Below are positions 57,115 to 63,172 of a DNA stretch of 64,000 nt, piece after piece. How positions within the stretch are numbered: the first letter of the stretch is position 1; each line of letters begins with the position of its first letter. This DNA comes from Actinomarinicola tropica (GTDB taxonomy: Bacteria > Actinomycetota > Acidimicrobiia > Acidimicrobiales > SKKL01), in contig NZ_CP045851.1 in the NCBI RefSeq assembly GCF_009650215.1, positions 1,527,189 through 1,591,188 of the forward strand. The letters are read 5' to 3'. The notes beneath the pieces are model-generated. The model ran no database searches, was not told the DNA's origin, and was given only the letters and a program-made list of their open reading frames with translations. The translations under genes and the position numbers were made by a program.

Positions 57115-57579
57115 TCAGACGGAGAACCACTGGGTGGTGACCGCGCCGTCCGGTGCCGTGACCTGCAGGCGCAGGGTCCCCGGCGGCACGTCGGGGAAGG
57201 TGAAGTGCCCGATGGGGTCGGCTCGTGTCGTGCGCTCGGTGCCGTCCGGCCGCACGAGCGTGACCTCGAGCGGACGGGTGGGGACGAGCTGCCCGACGAG
57301 CTGGTCGCCCTCGACCTCGACCTCGATGGTGAGCTCGCGGCTCTCGAACGACAGCTGCCGCGGCCACGCCATGCCCCGGACGCCGAGCGGCTCGAGCGCC
57401 GAGTCGACGCGCAGCTCGGCGAGCTCGGCGTCGATGGTCCGCCACGTCCAGGCGGCGCGCGCGGCGGCGATGGCGGAGGCCGACGGGGGATCGTGGGCGT
57501 CGAGGGTCCGGCCGAGCTCGGCGAGCAGCTCGGCGTCGGGATCGGCCGGGTCGACGGGGACGTCCGGTCGGTCGGTCAT
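57115..57579 (-). CDS. Small sigma-factor-linked protein with carboxypeptidase-regulatory-like beta domain
   Basis: 154 residues from ATG 57579 behind AGGAGGA; it overlaps the sigma-factor stop by ATGA. The acidic N-terminal half is helical (PDAELLAELGRTLDAHDPPSASAIAAARAAWTWRTIDAELAEL). The C-terminal half is a beta-sandwich-like segment (PLEVTLVRPDGTERTTRADPIGHFTFPDVPPGTLRLQVTAPDG) as in carboxypeptidase-regulatory/CNA-B-like domains. It has no zinc-binding HxxxCxxC motif and no membrane helix, so it is not a standard anti-sigma factor. Its coupling to the sigma factor still suggests that it modulates or senses for it. Confidence 0.7.
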   Translation of the reverse strand: MTDRPDVPVDPADPDAELLAELGRTLDAHDPPSASAIAAARAAWTWRTIDAELAELRVDSALEPLGVRGMAWPRQLSFESRELTIEVEVEGDQLVGQLVPTRPLEVTLVRPDGTERTTRADPIGHFTFPDVPPGTLRLQVTAPDGAVTTQWFSV

Positions 57580-58127
57580 CGGTCCTCCTGGAGCGATCGG
57601 ATGCCCGCGGTGGCCCTGAGCTTCTGGAGGCACCGGGCCCTCGTGGGTCCGATGCTGCCGATGGGCATGTCCATGAGCTCGCTGATCGTGTCGTAGGGGA
57701 TCGGGGGGTCCGCGAGGAGGAGGCGGAGCAGGCGCTGGCAGCGTGCCGGCAGCGTGTTGAAGGCGTCCCAGAGCGCCGCGTCGCGCTCGGCGTCCTCGAG
57801 CGGCTGACCGAACGGTTCCTCGACCGCGGGTGGATCGACCTCGTCGTCGAGGTGCTCGCGCTGGGCGAGCCGCACGGCGCGGAGGCACTCGTTGCGGGCG
57901 GTGCGGGCGAGCCACCCCGCCAGGCTCTCCGGCTGGCGGATCCGGTCGAGGTGCTCGGCGAGGCGGAGCCAGGTGGTCTGGTACGCGTCCTCGACGACGG
58001 CGTCGGGGAGGCGGAACGTGCGCACGACGTGCCAGACGAGTCCGGCGTAGCGGTCGACGAGCGACGACCACGCGGTCTCGTCGCCGCGGGATGCGGCAGC
58101 GACCAGGGCGGTGAGGTCGTCCGACAC
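57576..58127 (-). CDS. ECF-type RNA polymerase sigma factor
   Basis: 183 residues from GTG 58127. Region 2 reads ETAWSSLVDRYAGLVWHVVRTFRLPDAVVEDAYQTTWLRLAEHLDRIRQPESLAGWLARTARNECLRAVR. Region 4 reads LWDAFNTLPARCQRLLRLLLADPPIPYDTISELMDMPIGSIGPTRARCLQKLR, a normal sigma HTH with GSIGPTR. ATG at 58193 would add 22 Arg/Pro-rich residues. It lies downstream of the subtilase on the same strand and upstream of its coupled small partner. A GAGGTATCAGG motif stands in its upstream region. Predicted to switch on this locus or a wider regulon. Confidence 0.9.
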   Translation of the reverse strand: MSDDLTALVAAASRGDETAWSSLVDRYAGLVWHVVRTFRLPDAVVEDAYQTTWLRLAEHLDRIRQPESLAGWLARTARNECLRAVRLAQREHLDDEVDPPAVEEPFGQPLEDAERDAALWDAFNTLPARCQRLLRLLLADPPIPYDTISELMDMPIGSIGPTRARCLQKLRATAGIRSLQEDR

Positions 58128-58219
58128 CGTCCGGATCCTAGGGGCGCGGCGCGCCGCCGGTGCCGGACGCGTGGGCTGGGCGACGAGCTCCATGACCGAC
58201 CAGAGCGCGGACCAGCCGC

Positions 58220-58230
58220 CCTGATACCTC
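58220..58230 (-). promoter_or_regulatory. GAGGTATCAGG motif upstream of the sigma-factor gene
   Basis: Read on the minus strand, the 11-mer GAGGTATCAGG is identical to the one before the SARP gene (62428-62438). A related CGTATCAAGGC lies in the subtilase/CHAT intergenic region. It could be an operator or part of a promoter for a shared regulator. Confidence 0.45.
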
Positions 58231-58244
58231 CCGGTGCGGTCGGC

Positions 58245-59648
58245 TCAGGCCAGGTTGACGACGGTGCCGAGGCCCTGGATCCGCAGCAGCGAGGGGTCGT
58301 CGACCACGCGGCGCACCGCCTCCGACGCGTCGCAGCCCGTGGCCATCCGGGCGGCGATGGCCGCGGCCACCGCCGGAGCGGCGAACGACGTCCCGCTCCA
58401 CCGCGCCCATCCCTCGAACGCCGCCCCGTCCTCGTCCTCGGGCAGGCTCGACGGGTCGCCGCCCTTCGGGACGAAGAAGCGGGAGACGACGTCGACCCCC
58501 GGTGCGCAGGCCCGGACCCACCGGCCGACGTTGGTGAACGGCGCCGGCCCGTACGGTCCGATCGCCCCCACCGAGACGAGGTCGGGGAGCGCGGCGGGCC
58601 AGCTCGGACGGCACGACGCCTCGTTGCCCGCCGACGCCACGACGACCGAACCGTGGGCGACGACCCGGGCGAGGGACTCGGAGAGGGCCAGCGGCGGCTC
58701 GTCGTCCTCGGTGTAGCCACCGAACGACAGGTTGAGGATCTCGGGCAGGTCGCCCGGGTCGATGGCATCGATCGCCGCCGCGATGTCGGCGTCGTCGCCG
58801 TGGCCGAACGTCGAGAGGACGCGGTCGACCGCGACCGGCGAGCGTGGCGCCAGACGCTCGACGATGCCGGCGATGAAGGTGCCGTGGCCCGCAGCGGGGT
58901 CGATGGCGAGGTCGCCGTCCTCGTCGGGGTGGTCGACGTCGTCGGTGCGGAGCGGCTGGACCGACCCGACGAACGCCGGCCGGAAGTCCCCGGCGGCGAG
59001 CCCGGTGTCGAGCACGAGCACCCGGGGGCCGTCCTGGGTGCCGCTCGCCGTCAGGGTGCTCGGCGCGGTGCACGCCCGGGCGTTGGTGGCGACAGGAGCC
59101 TCCTCCGGTGCGACGACGGGCATCGGGCTGGCGAAGCAGCTGCAGTGCGGGCACCCGCCCTGCCCGTGCGCGAGCAGGGCGGGGTTGGCGAGGAGCGCGG
59201 GGTTGGCGAGGAGCGCGGGGTTGGCGAGGAGCGCGGGGTTGGCGAGGAGCGCGGGGTTGGCGAGGAGCGCGGGGTTGGCGAGGAGCGCGGGGTTGGCGAG
59301 CAGGGCCGGGTTGGCGAGGAGCGCCGGGTTGGCGAGCAGCGCGGGGTTGGCGAGCACGCCGGTCGCCGCGAAGAACACGTGGTTGGGCTGGGCGGCGACC
59401 CCTTCCCGCCGCAGGGCGCGGGCCAGCCCGACGACGTCGTCGACGCCGGCCAGCAGCGTGAGCGATCCCACCTCGCGGACCCGCTCGGCCCGACCGCCGC
59501 CCAGCTCGACCACGCGGTCGAGCTCGCGGGTCGAGACGAGGAGCTCGCCCGGTCGGTGGACGAAGGGTCGGCCCGCGCTGTCGGCGCTGAACGCCACCTT
59601 GCCCAGCCACGGTCCCTGCAGCAGCTCCCTGCGCTCGCCGTCGTACAT
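58245..59648 (-). CDS. S8 family subtilase with N-terminal domain, LANPAL repeats and CxxCxC motif
   Basis: 467 residues from ATG 59648 behind GAGGAGAG. No signal peptide is visible, so it is probably cytoplasmic. Residues 30-95 resemble a subtilase prodomain ([10 protein letters not shown]). Residues 99-158 are ten copies of LANPAL. Cys166-Cys169-Cys171 (CPHCSC) follow, then the catalytic domain with Asp214 (VLVLDTGL), His255 (GHGTFIAG), Asn342 (ASAGNEAS) and Ser421 (SGTSFAAP). All catalytic residues are present. Divergent from the TPR-CHAT gene, with 121 bp between, and followed by the ECF sigma gene. Its target is unknown. Confidence 0.9.
59175..59354 (-). repeat. Ten tandem 18-bp repeats inside the subtilase gene
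   Basis: Unit CTCGCCAACCCCGCGCTC on the minus strand, encoding LANPAL, repeated ten times without interruption (180 bp) in frame. Central units are identical; the outer ones differ by one or two silent bases. Copy number could change without breaking the frame. Confidence 0.97.
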
Positions 59649-59733
59649 GGTGCTCTCCTCGCCTGGTCGTGAGGAGGGGCGTCGTCGCCCCCGCCCGTGC
59701 AGCCGATGCGATCCGATCGACCCGTCGGTGCCT

Positions 59734-59739
59734 TGATAC
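59734..59739 (-). promoter_or_regulatory. GTATCA core in the subtilase/CHAT intergenic region
   Basis: On the minus strand the context is TCGTATCAAGGCACC, 86 bp before the subtilase start, similar to the GAGGTATCAGG sites before the sigma factor and SARP genes. On the plus strand the same bases give TTGATA, a possible -35 for the CHAT gene. Confidence 0.35.
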
Positions 59740-59769
59740 GACAAAGTTGGGTCCGATGCACGGGTTCGG

Positions 59770-62427
59770 GTGGTCGACGTCGGGAGCGGAGGGGTGACGC
59801 TGGGGCGTGCCGCGGCGCTGCTCGAGGCGGTGCAGGCAGATCCCCGCCGGACGGCCGACGCGGCGCGCGACCTCGTGGACGACGGCTCGGCGACGCCGCT
59901 CGAGCGCATCGGGGCGCTGTGGGCGCTCGGTCGGGCGCTGTCGGAGCTGGACGAGGTCGAGGCGGCCTGCCGCACGCTCGGCGAGGCGGCCGACGCCGCC
60001 GACGGCGCCGCGGAGGGCGCCCTCGCCGCCGAGATCCGGGTCAGTCGCTCGGTGTGCCTGCTCACCGCGGGCGATGCGGAGGCGGCCCGCGCCGAGCTCG
60101 ACCTCGCCGAGGAGCAGATCCCGCCGGGTGGGCCGACCGGTCGGCTGGTCATGCAGCGCGGGTTGCTCGAGATCTACGGCGGTCGGCTCGCGTCGGCGCT
60201 CGAGGCGCTCGACCGCGCGCTCCCCATGCTCGTCGACGCCGGCGATGACCTCGCCCGGTGCCGCCTCCTGTCCAACCGCGGCGTCATCCTCGCCTTCCTC
60301 GGGCAGCTCGACCGGGCCCAGGACGACCTCGACGAGTGCCAGTCGCTCGCCACGCGCCTCGGCCAGGACATGGCGGCCGCGGCAGCGCTCCACAACCTCG
60401 GGTTCGTGCGCGGTCGGCGCGGCGACGTGCCCCGGGCCCTCGACGACCTGCGGACCGCCCGCCGGGCCTACGAGGCGCTCGGCGCGGCCCGACTCGTCGC
60501 CACCCTCGATGCCGACCTGGGAGCGGTGCTCCTCACCGGTGGTCTGGCGGAGGAGGCTGCGGAAGCGGCTGCTCGCGCCGTCGACGCCGCGTCTGCGGCC
60601 GGGAACCGGCTGACGGAGGCCGAGGCGCGCCTGCTCCTCGCCGAGGCGTCGCTCGCCGCGGGGCGGACGGCCAGCGCACGCCGGGCGGCGCAGGAGGCCG
60701 CCGACACGTTCCGCGCCGCGGGGCGGGACCCCTGGGCCACGATCGCCGACCACCTGGTGCTGCGGGCCGACGTCGCCGGCGGAGCGGTGGGACCCGACGA
60801 CCTCGACGCCGTGCTCGGGGTGGCCGAGCAGCTCGACGCGCACGGCTGGACGGTCGAGGCGGCGGGCGCACGTGCCCTCGTCGGGCGCCTCGGCATCGCG
60901 CTCGGGCGTGTCGAGCTGGCGCGGCGCGCGCTGGAGCGGTCGGCGGCCGACCGTTGCCAGGGCCCCGCGGCGCTGCGAGCGAGCGCGTGGCTCGCCACCG
61001 CGATGCTCCGTGCCGAGGACGGCGACCGTGCCGGCGCCCGTCGGGCGCTGGCCGCTGGGATGCGGGTCATCGCCGCGCACCAGGCTGCCCTCGGCTCGAC
61101 GGAGCTGCGGGTGCACGCCGCGGCGCAGGGCCGGGAGCTGGCCGGTCTCGGGCTCCGCCTCGCCGTCGAGGATGGCTCGCCGGAGGACCTGCTGCGCTGG
61201 GCGGAGCGCTGGCGGGCCCGGGCCCTGAGCCTCCCGCCGGTCCGACCCCCTCGGGACGGGCGCCTCGCAGCACTCCTCGACGACCTGCGGGCCCTCGACG
61301 CCGCGCACCGGGAGCTGCTGCTCGGCGGCGCGGAGGTCGACGACGCCGAGCGCGCTCGGCGGATCGAGCTCGAGGACGAGGTCCGCGCGGTGAGTCGCAG
61401 CCTCTCGGGCTCGGGTGCGGCCAGCGAGCGGCTCGACCTCGGGGGTCTTCGCGCCCAGCTCGGCGCGACCGGTGCCCAGCTGGTCGAGCTCGTGGAGGTC
61501 GACGGTGAGCTGCACGCCGTGGTCGCCGAGGCCGATCCGGCGACGTGGCGGTGGTGCGCCCTCGGTCCGGTCGCGGAGCTCTCGGCGCAGGTCGCGCAGG
61601 CGCTCGCGTCGATCCGTCGCCTGGCCGTCGCCCGTTCGTCGCCGCGCGCCCTCGCGGCAGCGGTCGAGGCCCTCGGCGCGCTGGGGCGAGCGGTCGACCA
61701 GCGCGTGGTGGCACCGCTCGGCCTGGCGCCCGACGGGCCCGTCGTCATCGTGCCGACCGGCGTCCTCCAGCGGTTCCCGTGGTCGGTCGTGCCCTCCCTC
61801 ACCGCTCGGCCCGTCGTCGTCGCCCCCAGCGCCGCGCTGTGGGTGCGCGCCGCCCGGCCCGCCGTCGACGGTCGGGTCGTCCTCGTGGGTGGTCCCGACC
61901 TCGAGCACGTCGAGCGGGAGCTCGAGCTCCTCTCCGAGGTCCACCCCGACGCCCTGGTGCTCGGTCCCGAGGACTGCCGCGCCGGCCGCGTGCTCGACGC
62001 CGCCTCCGGCGCCCGGATGGTCCACCTCGCCGCCCACGGGACGCTCCGCTCCGACAGCCCGCTGTTCACGTCCCTCCAGCTCGCGGACGGGCCGCTCACG
62101 GTGTACGACCTCGAGCACCTCGAGGACCCGCCCCGCACCGTCGTCCTGCCGGCGTGCGACGCCGGCGCCTCGACCGTCGCCACCGGCGACGAGCTGATCG
62201 GATCGGCCGTCGGCCTGCTGTCGATGGGCGTCAGCCAGGTGGTGGCACCGCTGACGATGGTGCCCGACGAGGCGACGGTCGACCTCGTCGTCGACCTCCA
62301 CCGGGCGGTGGCGGGCGGACTGGACGTGCCGCACGCCCTCGCTGCGGCGCGGACCGCGGCCCTGGCGCGGGGCGGTCCGCAGGACGTCGCCGCCGCCCAC
62401 GCCTTCGTCGTCCTCGGCGGGTCCTGA
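59770..62427 (+). CDS. TPR-CHAT domain protein (caspase-like peptidase)
   Basis: 885 residues from GTG 59770. The N-terminal ~480 residues are helical TPR-like repeats ([59 protein letters not shown]). The C-terminal CHAT caspase-like domain has a catalytic His756 ([22 protein letters not shown]) and Cys796 ([11 protein letters not shown]), plus [23 protein letters not shown] proteases act in gasdermin, type III-E CRISPR and other conflict systems, where TPRs sense a partner. It is divergent from the subtilase and followed by the SARP-type gene after 37 bp. GTG at 59794 is an alternative start. Confidence 0.9.
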
Positions 62428-62464: not shown

Positions 62465-63172
62465 ATGACGACGACGCTGCAGCTGCTCGGCGGGTTCGAG
62501 GTGCGAGCCGGCGGGGTCCGCGTGGACCTGCCGGCGGCGGGCGAGCGCCTGGTGGCGCTCCTCGCGCTGCGCCGGGGGCCCCAGACGAGGGACGTGGTCG
62601 CACGTGCGGTGTGGCCGGCGACCACCCCCTCGCCCGGGGCCCGCCTCCTCGACACCCTGCTCGGCCGGCTGTCCGACCAGGTCCGGCAGGGCATCGACGT
62701 CGACCCTCACGGATCCCTCTCGCTGGGGTCCGGGTGGGACGTCGACCTCGACCAGGCGCTCGACGCCGCGCGCCGGCTGCACGTGGACCCGACCCCGGTC
62801 GGCGCCGACCTCGTCGTCTTCCGCCTCGACCTGCTGCCGGGGTGGTTCGAGCCCTGGCTCGACGAGGTCCAGGCCCGGTACCGCCGGCTGCGGATGTCGG
62901 TGCTGCGGCGGGTCGGGCGCCACCAGCTCGACGTCGGCGACGTGGACGACGCCGCGGACATCGCCCTCGAGCTCCTGGCGGACGATCCCTGCAACGAGGA
63001 GGCGCAGCTGCTCCTCGTCGAGGCCCTGCTGGCCCGGGGGGACCACGCGCTGGCGCGTCGGACCCTCGACCGCTTCCGGCGACGCCTGCGCTACGAGCTC
63101 GGCGTCGAGCCGACGGCGGGGATGCGGGCGGCGATCGCCCGCGCGGAGCACCCGGCACGCGGCGGCGTCTGA
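62465..63172 (+). CDS. SARP/BTAD-type transcriptional regulator
   Basis: 235 residues. The N-terminal OmpR-like winged helix reads LQLLGGFEVRAGGVRVDLPAAGERLVALLALRRGPQTRDVVARAVWP, and the C-terminal half is a bacterial transcriptional activator domain (VFRLDLLPGWFEPWLDEVQARYRRLRMSVLRRVGRHQLDVGDVDDAADIALELLADDPCNEEAQLLLVEALLARGDHALA, LGVEPTAGM). SARP proteins activate secondary-metabolite or conflict operons by binding direct repeats. The position behind the CHAT gene suggests local control. Confidence 0.87.
   Translation: MTTTLQLLGGFEVRAGGVRVDLPAAGERLVALLALRRGPQTRDVVARAVWPATTPSPGARLLDTLLGRLSDQVRQGIDVDPHGSLSLGSGWDVDLDQALDAARRLHVDPTPVGADLVVFRLDLLPGWFEPWLDEVQARYRRLRMSVLRRVGRHQLDVGDVDDAADIALELLADDPCNEEAQLLLVEALLARGDHALARRTLDRFRRRLRYELGVEPTAGMRAAIARAEHPARGGV

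Follow-up and report, generated by a model that had tools for sequence, protein, structure and literature searches.

A tandem short-motif array in the zymogen linker of a bacterial subtilase clade

Introduction

What could ten perfect copies of a six-residue unit do inside a protease? The question is raised by a subtilase gene in a stretch of 64,000 nucleotides from Actinomarinicola tropica (in the following, "the window" denotes this whole stretch), in which the unit LANPAL is repeated between the prodomain and the catalytic domain of the encoded enzyme. An initial annotation, made from the letters of the DNA, proposed that the repeat could be a length-tuned linker, an assembly surface, or a series of sites at which the neighbouring CHAT protease cuts. 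A literature search, which covered few subscription papers, returned no description of the array strings or of the gene module in which they occur.

Results

Anatomy of the subtilase and its array

The gene (Table 1) starts with an ATG at position 59648, preceded by GAGGAG. Its product belongs to peptidase family S8: in addition to the match to PF00082, the residues of the Asp, His, Ser triad and the oxyanion Asn (D214, H255, N342 and S421) are invariant in both family alignments. The protein does not qualify as a T7SS mycosin, its score with TIGR03921 being 68.6 bits against an NCBIfam equivalog cut-off of 278.75. An AlphaFold model of the window subtilase (26 sequences) has an overall pLDDT of 79 and predicts the prodomain and the enzyme with confidence, the prodomain with a pLDDT of 84-96 across aa 21-89 and a confident domain up to about aa 93; across aa 97-186 pLDDT is mostly below 50. 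A foldseek search with this model matched subtilisins, among them, at full length and over 478 columns, pro-subtilisin E in its unautoprocessed form (3whi), and model and match together point to an N-terminal prodomain as in extracellular subtilisins. The window subtilase has no separate Pfam match to an inhibitor domain. The prodomain ends at aa 98, a position that we take to correspond to the tail in subtilisin prodomains. Visual inspection of the 467 residues gives no evidence of a signal peptide.

Table 1. Features of the subtilase locus, with positions in the window.
Feature	Position	Strand	Evidence and remarks
Small Ig-like/CarboxypepD_reg-like protein gene	57115..57579	-	CarboxypepD_reg E 3.7e-7, just below curated cut-off
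ECF-type sigma factor gene	57576..58193	-	Pfam Sigma70_r2, NCBIfam sigma70-ECF; conserved neighbour
Subtilase (S8) gene, 467 aa	58245..59648	-	ORF and start; Pfam PF00082; conserved catalytic residues; AlphaFold
S8 catalytic domain, aa 206-433	58350..59033	-	Pfam PF00082 E 7e-19; foldseek
Post-array linker with Cys cluster GCPHCSC, aa 159-205	59034..59174	-	Sequence; low pLDDT to about aa 186
LANPAL tandem array, aa 99-158	59175..59354	-	Ten 18-bp units, predicted disordered
Prodomain, aa 1-98	59355..59648	-	pLDDT; conservation in homologues; pro-subtilisin E match
TPR-CHAT protease gene, 885 aa	59770..62427	+	Pfam CHAT E 2.6e-29, TPR_12; divergent neighbour

The LANPAL units fill their interval exactly and in frame, and all ten are identical at the protein level. 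The first description of the repeat, as ten perfect copies of an 18-bp unit between prodomain and catalytic domain, is thus confirmed by the gene sequence and by TRF (10.3 copies x 18 bp, 94% matches, score 321), with exact coordinates and with flanks defined by Pfam and AlphaFold. The runner-up tandem array in the window reaches a TRF score of 80. Units 4-9 are identical at the DNA level; the remaining four carry changes solely at synonymous third positions. A degenerate codon pattern for ANPALLA has ten matches in the whole 3.7-Mb genome, all of them at the array, and the reversed pattern, used as a control, has none; we therefore rejected the idea that LANPAL is a motif common to other proteins of this genome. 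No comparable array was found in the CHAT, ECF and Ig-like partner proteins, and an array match assigned to the CHAT gene of one locus (L110) was discarded, as the matching portion of this stop-to-stop frame lies across the S8 array.

The array itself is predicted to be disordered, with pLDDT values of about 30-54 in each of two members that have unrelated units. On paper LANPAL fits the pattern of a hexapeptide left-handed beta-helix; this and other folded solenoids were rejected, as neither of the two AlphaFold models contains an ordered array. More than half of the arrayed S8 proteins have a Cys-rich stretch next to the array, on its N- or C-terminal side (GCPHCSC at aa 165-171 in the window), which is a possible metal or redox site.

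Distribution and units of the array family

The family was gathered from searches among the window's relatives, its order and phylum, three selected groups and the class of G446. Of the 29 rows labelled as array-bearing in the catalytic-domain tree (45 rows), one (L148) ends at the array, which leaves 28 that were read; a further array-bearing locus (L123) lies outside the tree. All 28 readable clade members, from two bacterial classes, carry a tandem array between prodomain and S8 domain, and no loss was seen among members whose sequence reaches the array site. The 29 array rows fall on one side of a single branch, corresponding to one change, in 94% of bootstraps. Support for the array-clade branch is 93/64, and with an SH-aLRT of only 64 and a bootstrap that is not fully settled, one origin of the arrays is likely, not certain. 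All arrays fall in one clade of subtilase zymogens that look intracellular, and they occupy a fixed site. Homologues with the same gene set and no array exist, all of them outside this clade; the finding that the initial annotation named as a refutation, a missing or unrelated array in orthologues of identical gene order, did not occur inside it.

The units found at this site are diverse. Besides LANPAL they comprise FANPIT, TPVYA, GSPLY, GSPVGW, NPNYLG, SPVYG, HPASFA, NPVYA, NPASFG, INPAE, NPHPTG, NPASYA, SPHPVG, NPGYQG, NPAYQA, NPAYQG, NPAYQS, PNYAA, TPNTF, TPYPGG, NPYPGA, NPFPST and TPYPST, as well as DPMRFA and PMSFSG, which recur at wider intervals. The usual period in the clade is 5 or 6 residues. 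Pro is present in each of the 28 units compared; the residue ahead of it is N, S, T, H, D or A throughout and N, S or T in 24, and all six-residue units (21/21) end in a small residue (A, G, S or T). Array length ranges from about 17 to 78 aa, and arrays of three to four copies occur. Copy number varies, as had been supposed, without loss of the gene: FANPIT occurs four times in the window's own genus, compared with ten copies of LANPAL, HPASFA six and nine times inside one genus, and 9 to 15 perfect units are found across five species of another; elsewhere there are ten copies of NPVYA.

At three loci (L147 in G781, L148 in G785 and L100 in G044) a contig ends at the array or its expected site, or an N gap lies inside; arrays evidently break assemblies, and copy numbers from drafts are minimum values. 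The S8 gene of L112 (G320) has fifteen TPYPGG units, and an extra C in a C run inside unit 10 shifts the frame, either a sequencing error or a gene-silencing slip. Repeat-only matches in G034, G067 and G123 proved to be frames rich in similar residues and devoid of an S8 domain, and were not retained as homologues. A duplicated prodomain tail is a tempting source of the unit in L098 (FFANPIT), but does not hold as a general origin. In L132 (G588) an array-less S8 of the same module has a twin-arginine-like signal at its start (SRRRILALSALAAAA), unlike the arrayed members.

Selection and turnover of the units

For units found by exact match and counted between the first and last match, a procedure that omits degenerate end units and so tends towards a low nonsynonymous count, 26 arrays hold 163 synonymous and 9 nonsynonymous codon differences from the consensus of the respective array. 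Codon structure leads to an expectation of about 45 synonymous differences (26%; binomial P ~2e-82, a value that treats unit differences as independent, which inherited ones are not). The window array alone contributes 7 synonymous differences and no nonsynonymous one. The adjoining linker served as a control: it differs between the window subtilase and its paired congener by 30 nonsynonymous and 14 synonymous changes, and in six pairs of congeners it changes more freely than the array. The ratio of 163:9 indicates that the amino acids of the unit are selected, and on this sequence evidence the array is a genuine feature of the zymogen linker, shared across the family and kept by selection.

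At fourfold-degenerate sites, units differ from each other by 0.33 on average, compared with 0.39-0.57 between congeneric catalytic domains. Such divergence, combined with almost no amino-acid change, implies that most arrays have had time to drift and are preserved by selection at the protein level. The G320 array and units 4-9 of the window are nearly uniform in DNA. The recent expansion that had been read from near-identical DNA stands for these six window units, but not for most arrays of the family.

Both the distance between units and their period show a weak correlation with the distance between catalytic domains (rho 0.24 and 0.27, respectively; 25 rows, 2 and 10 of 1000 permutations), so that units are inherited and gradually replaced. 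The catalytic domains of G009 and G781 are 97.4% identical, and their units are TPYPGG and NPYPGA.

Genomic neighbourhood

Subtilase, TPR-CHAT, ECF sigma and Ig-like genes form a module that recurs throughout the phylum with more than one arrangement of its genes (window 57115-62427; loci L098-L137), and the three partner genes are present at most of the subtilase loci. The CHAT gene accompanies the subtilase at 22 of 24 arrayed and 16 of 17 array-less loci, some of the absences being contig ends; the AHG and AC motifs of its catalytic dyad are present in the window, and the dyad is intact in nearly all loci. In L100 the arrayed S8 has no CHAT, ECF sigma or Ig-like gene within about 8 kb. The Ig-like gene starts inside the sigma gene, with a 4-bp overlap. 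Its product, a conserved neighbour, matches a biofilm surface protein in the PDB (E 1e-5) and is a candidate anti-sigma factor or protease inhibitor. A possible parallel is the Ig-fold protein IPI of B. subtilis, a reported inhibitor of an intracellular subtilisin (PMC3901451). A gene for a BTAD-domain regulator (62465-63172, plus strand) adjoins the CHAT gene in the window and stands beside the module in 0 of 40 other loci. When four neighbouring genes were scanned with PADLOC-DB, the subtilase alone was matched, to generic models.

Between the CHAT proteins of G009 and G782 (L103, L144) the TPR half evolves faster, with a conservation of 0.45-0.76 as against 0.84-0.95 in most of the CHAT half; the S8 catalytic domains of these genomes are 94% identical. 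A coupling of unit change to change in the TPR half was considered and is not claimed, since the pair G009/G320, which shares its unit, shows the same trend.

Discussion

What the array does is a matter of graded probability. Our tentative preference, still short of an even chance, goes to a disordered multi-copy motif whose repeated docking at a protease groove would control inhibition or activation. The array would tether the prodomain, whose tail should occupy the active-site cleft, and would offer many copies of a Pro-kinked peptide, [N/S/T]-P-x-hydrophobic-small, to a groove, either the cleft of the subtilase itself, in cis or in trans, or that of the neighbouring TPR-CHAT. Repeated weak binding may keep the zymogen shut, or docked to its partner, as long as the sigma/CHAT module is idle; once this is triggered, a cut in the linker would free the catalytic domain. 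Gain or loss of units would alter the local concentration and not the binding rule, leaving copy number free to vary, and each unit would have to fit the groove, hence selection within the array. The location of the array, preceded by a well-folded prodomain and followed by the catalytic domain, the clade on a single branch, the ratio of 163:9, the conserved Pro and the disorder predicted in two members all argue for this reading. A precedent is the Pro-kinked LIPY/F motif of intracellular subtilisins, which blocks the subtilisin active site (PMC6220982), and inhibition of this kind may by analogy be a model for how the array works. Against the docking reading, however, none of the 28 units conforms to the LIPY/F pattern [LVI]-[IFLV]-P-[YFH] of the same paper, and array ends bear degenerate units. 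TPYPGG and NPYPGA on catalytic domains that are 97% identical imply that any groove must tolerate such changes, and array-less homologues with the same neighbours show that the module can function without an array.

A rival proposal is that the array is a passive flexible spacer, in which repeats born by slippage are tolerated and length matters, if anything does. Its predicted disorder, which also agrees with the linker of the initial annotation, its variable length and the fact that 18-bp and 15-bp units expand without frameshift fit this idea; a purely passive spacer sits poorly with 163:9 between units next to a freely changing adjoining linker, with Pro in every unit and with the absence of array loss in the clade, and we regard it as unlikely. 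The suggested string of CHAT cleavage sites would amount to a protease cascade, in which TPR-CHAT, once triggered, would release the catalytic domain from its prodomain by cutting within the array. The CHAT gene with its intact dyad is adjacent in most arrayed loci, S8 and CHAT distances are correlated in the array clade (rho 0.68), and the TPR-CHAT protein Csx29 cuts a flexible loop of its partner (PMC10028731). The correlation, however, is expected from common inheritance and is about equal for the ECF and Ig-like proteins. The CHAT gene is found just as regularly beside array-less S8 genes, the arrayed L100 has none nearby, and Pro, the sole constant residue of the units, usually hinders cleavage, all of which makes the cascade improbable in our view.

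A step from Tyr, Phe or Leu to Ala or Gly is favourable for subtilisin-type specificity. The subtilase might cut its own array in cis or trans as an activation segment, with a hydrophobic P1 and a small P1'. Many units offer this step (NPVY-A, NPASF-G, NPALL-A) and the array lies at the classical maturation junction, but TPYPGG, NPFPST, NPHPTG and INPAE lack it and maturation does not need repeated sites; self-cleavage, too, has little probability. An assembly segment, close to the assembly surface proposed initially, is slightly less probable still: turn-forming Pro and aromatic or hydrophobic stickers would gather zymogens so that they activate each other by proximity. The regular alternation of Asn/Ser/Thr-Pro and hydrophobic with small residues is consistent with such a role, as are units alike within a protein and different between species, as homotypic matching would require, but two AlphaFold models predict no folded repeat and some arrays have as few as three or four copies. 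That the array is a precursor of many peptide copies within the protease, cut upon activation into 5- or 6-residue peptides which the TPR part of CHAT would read as a lineage-specific signal, would likewise explain units alike within a protein and different between lineages, and strikes us as very improbable.

If the docking reading is true, a whole bacterial subtilase clade controls itself via a tandem array in its activation linker. The repeat is under selection for unit identity, yet the unit is replaced between lineages, a combination that can be studied in the laboratory. More than 20 natural array types, all carried by a single enzyme scaffold and related by known changes of copy number and unit, constitute a series suited to testing disordered repeat linkers in zymogen control.

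Comparison with known systems

In fold and sequence the arrayed proteins match pro-subtilisin E/BPN', with a prodomain followed by an S8 catalytic domain. They differ in the lack of an evident signal peptide and in the array of 17-78 residues, often accompanied by a Cys cluster, that separates the prodomain from the enzyme. Intracellular subtilisins (PMC6220982) likewise have no signal peptide and a Pro-containing segment ahead of the S8 domain; theirs, in contrast, is a single short motif without a folded prodomain. Craspase combines the type III-E Cas7-11 with the TPR-CHAT protein Csx29, Csx30 and CASP-sigma, and its CHAT protease cleaves a sigma inhibitor (PMC10028731). The likeness of the module described here rests on its gene set, a TPR-CHAT gene beside an ECF sigma and a small partner, an arrangement also found in the window, where TPR-CHAT occurs next to the ECF sigma gene; the module differs by including an S8 subtilase. 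Multi-copy arrays of short motifs that are kept alike within a protein are familiar from the CTD of RNA polymerase II and from the malarial NANP repeats. These share with the subtilase arrays short, Pro-containing, disordered units and a conserved unit at variable copy number, whereas the array described here lies inside a protease zymogen and its unit is replaced between lineages.
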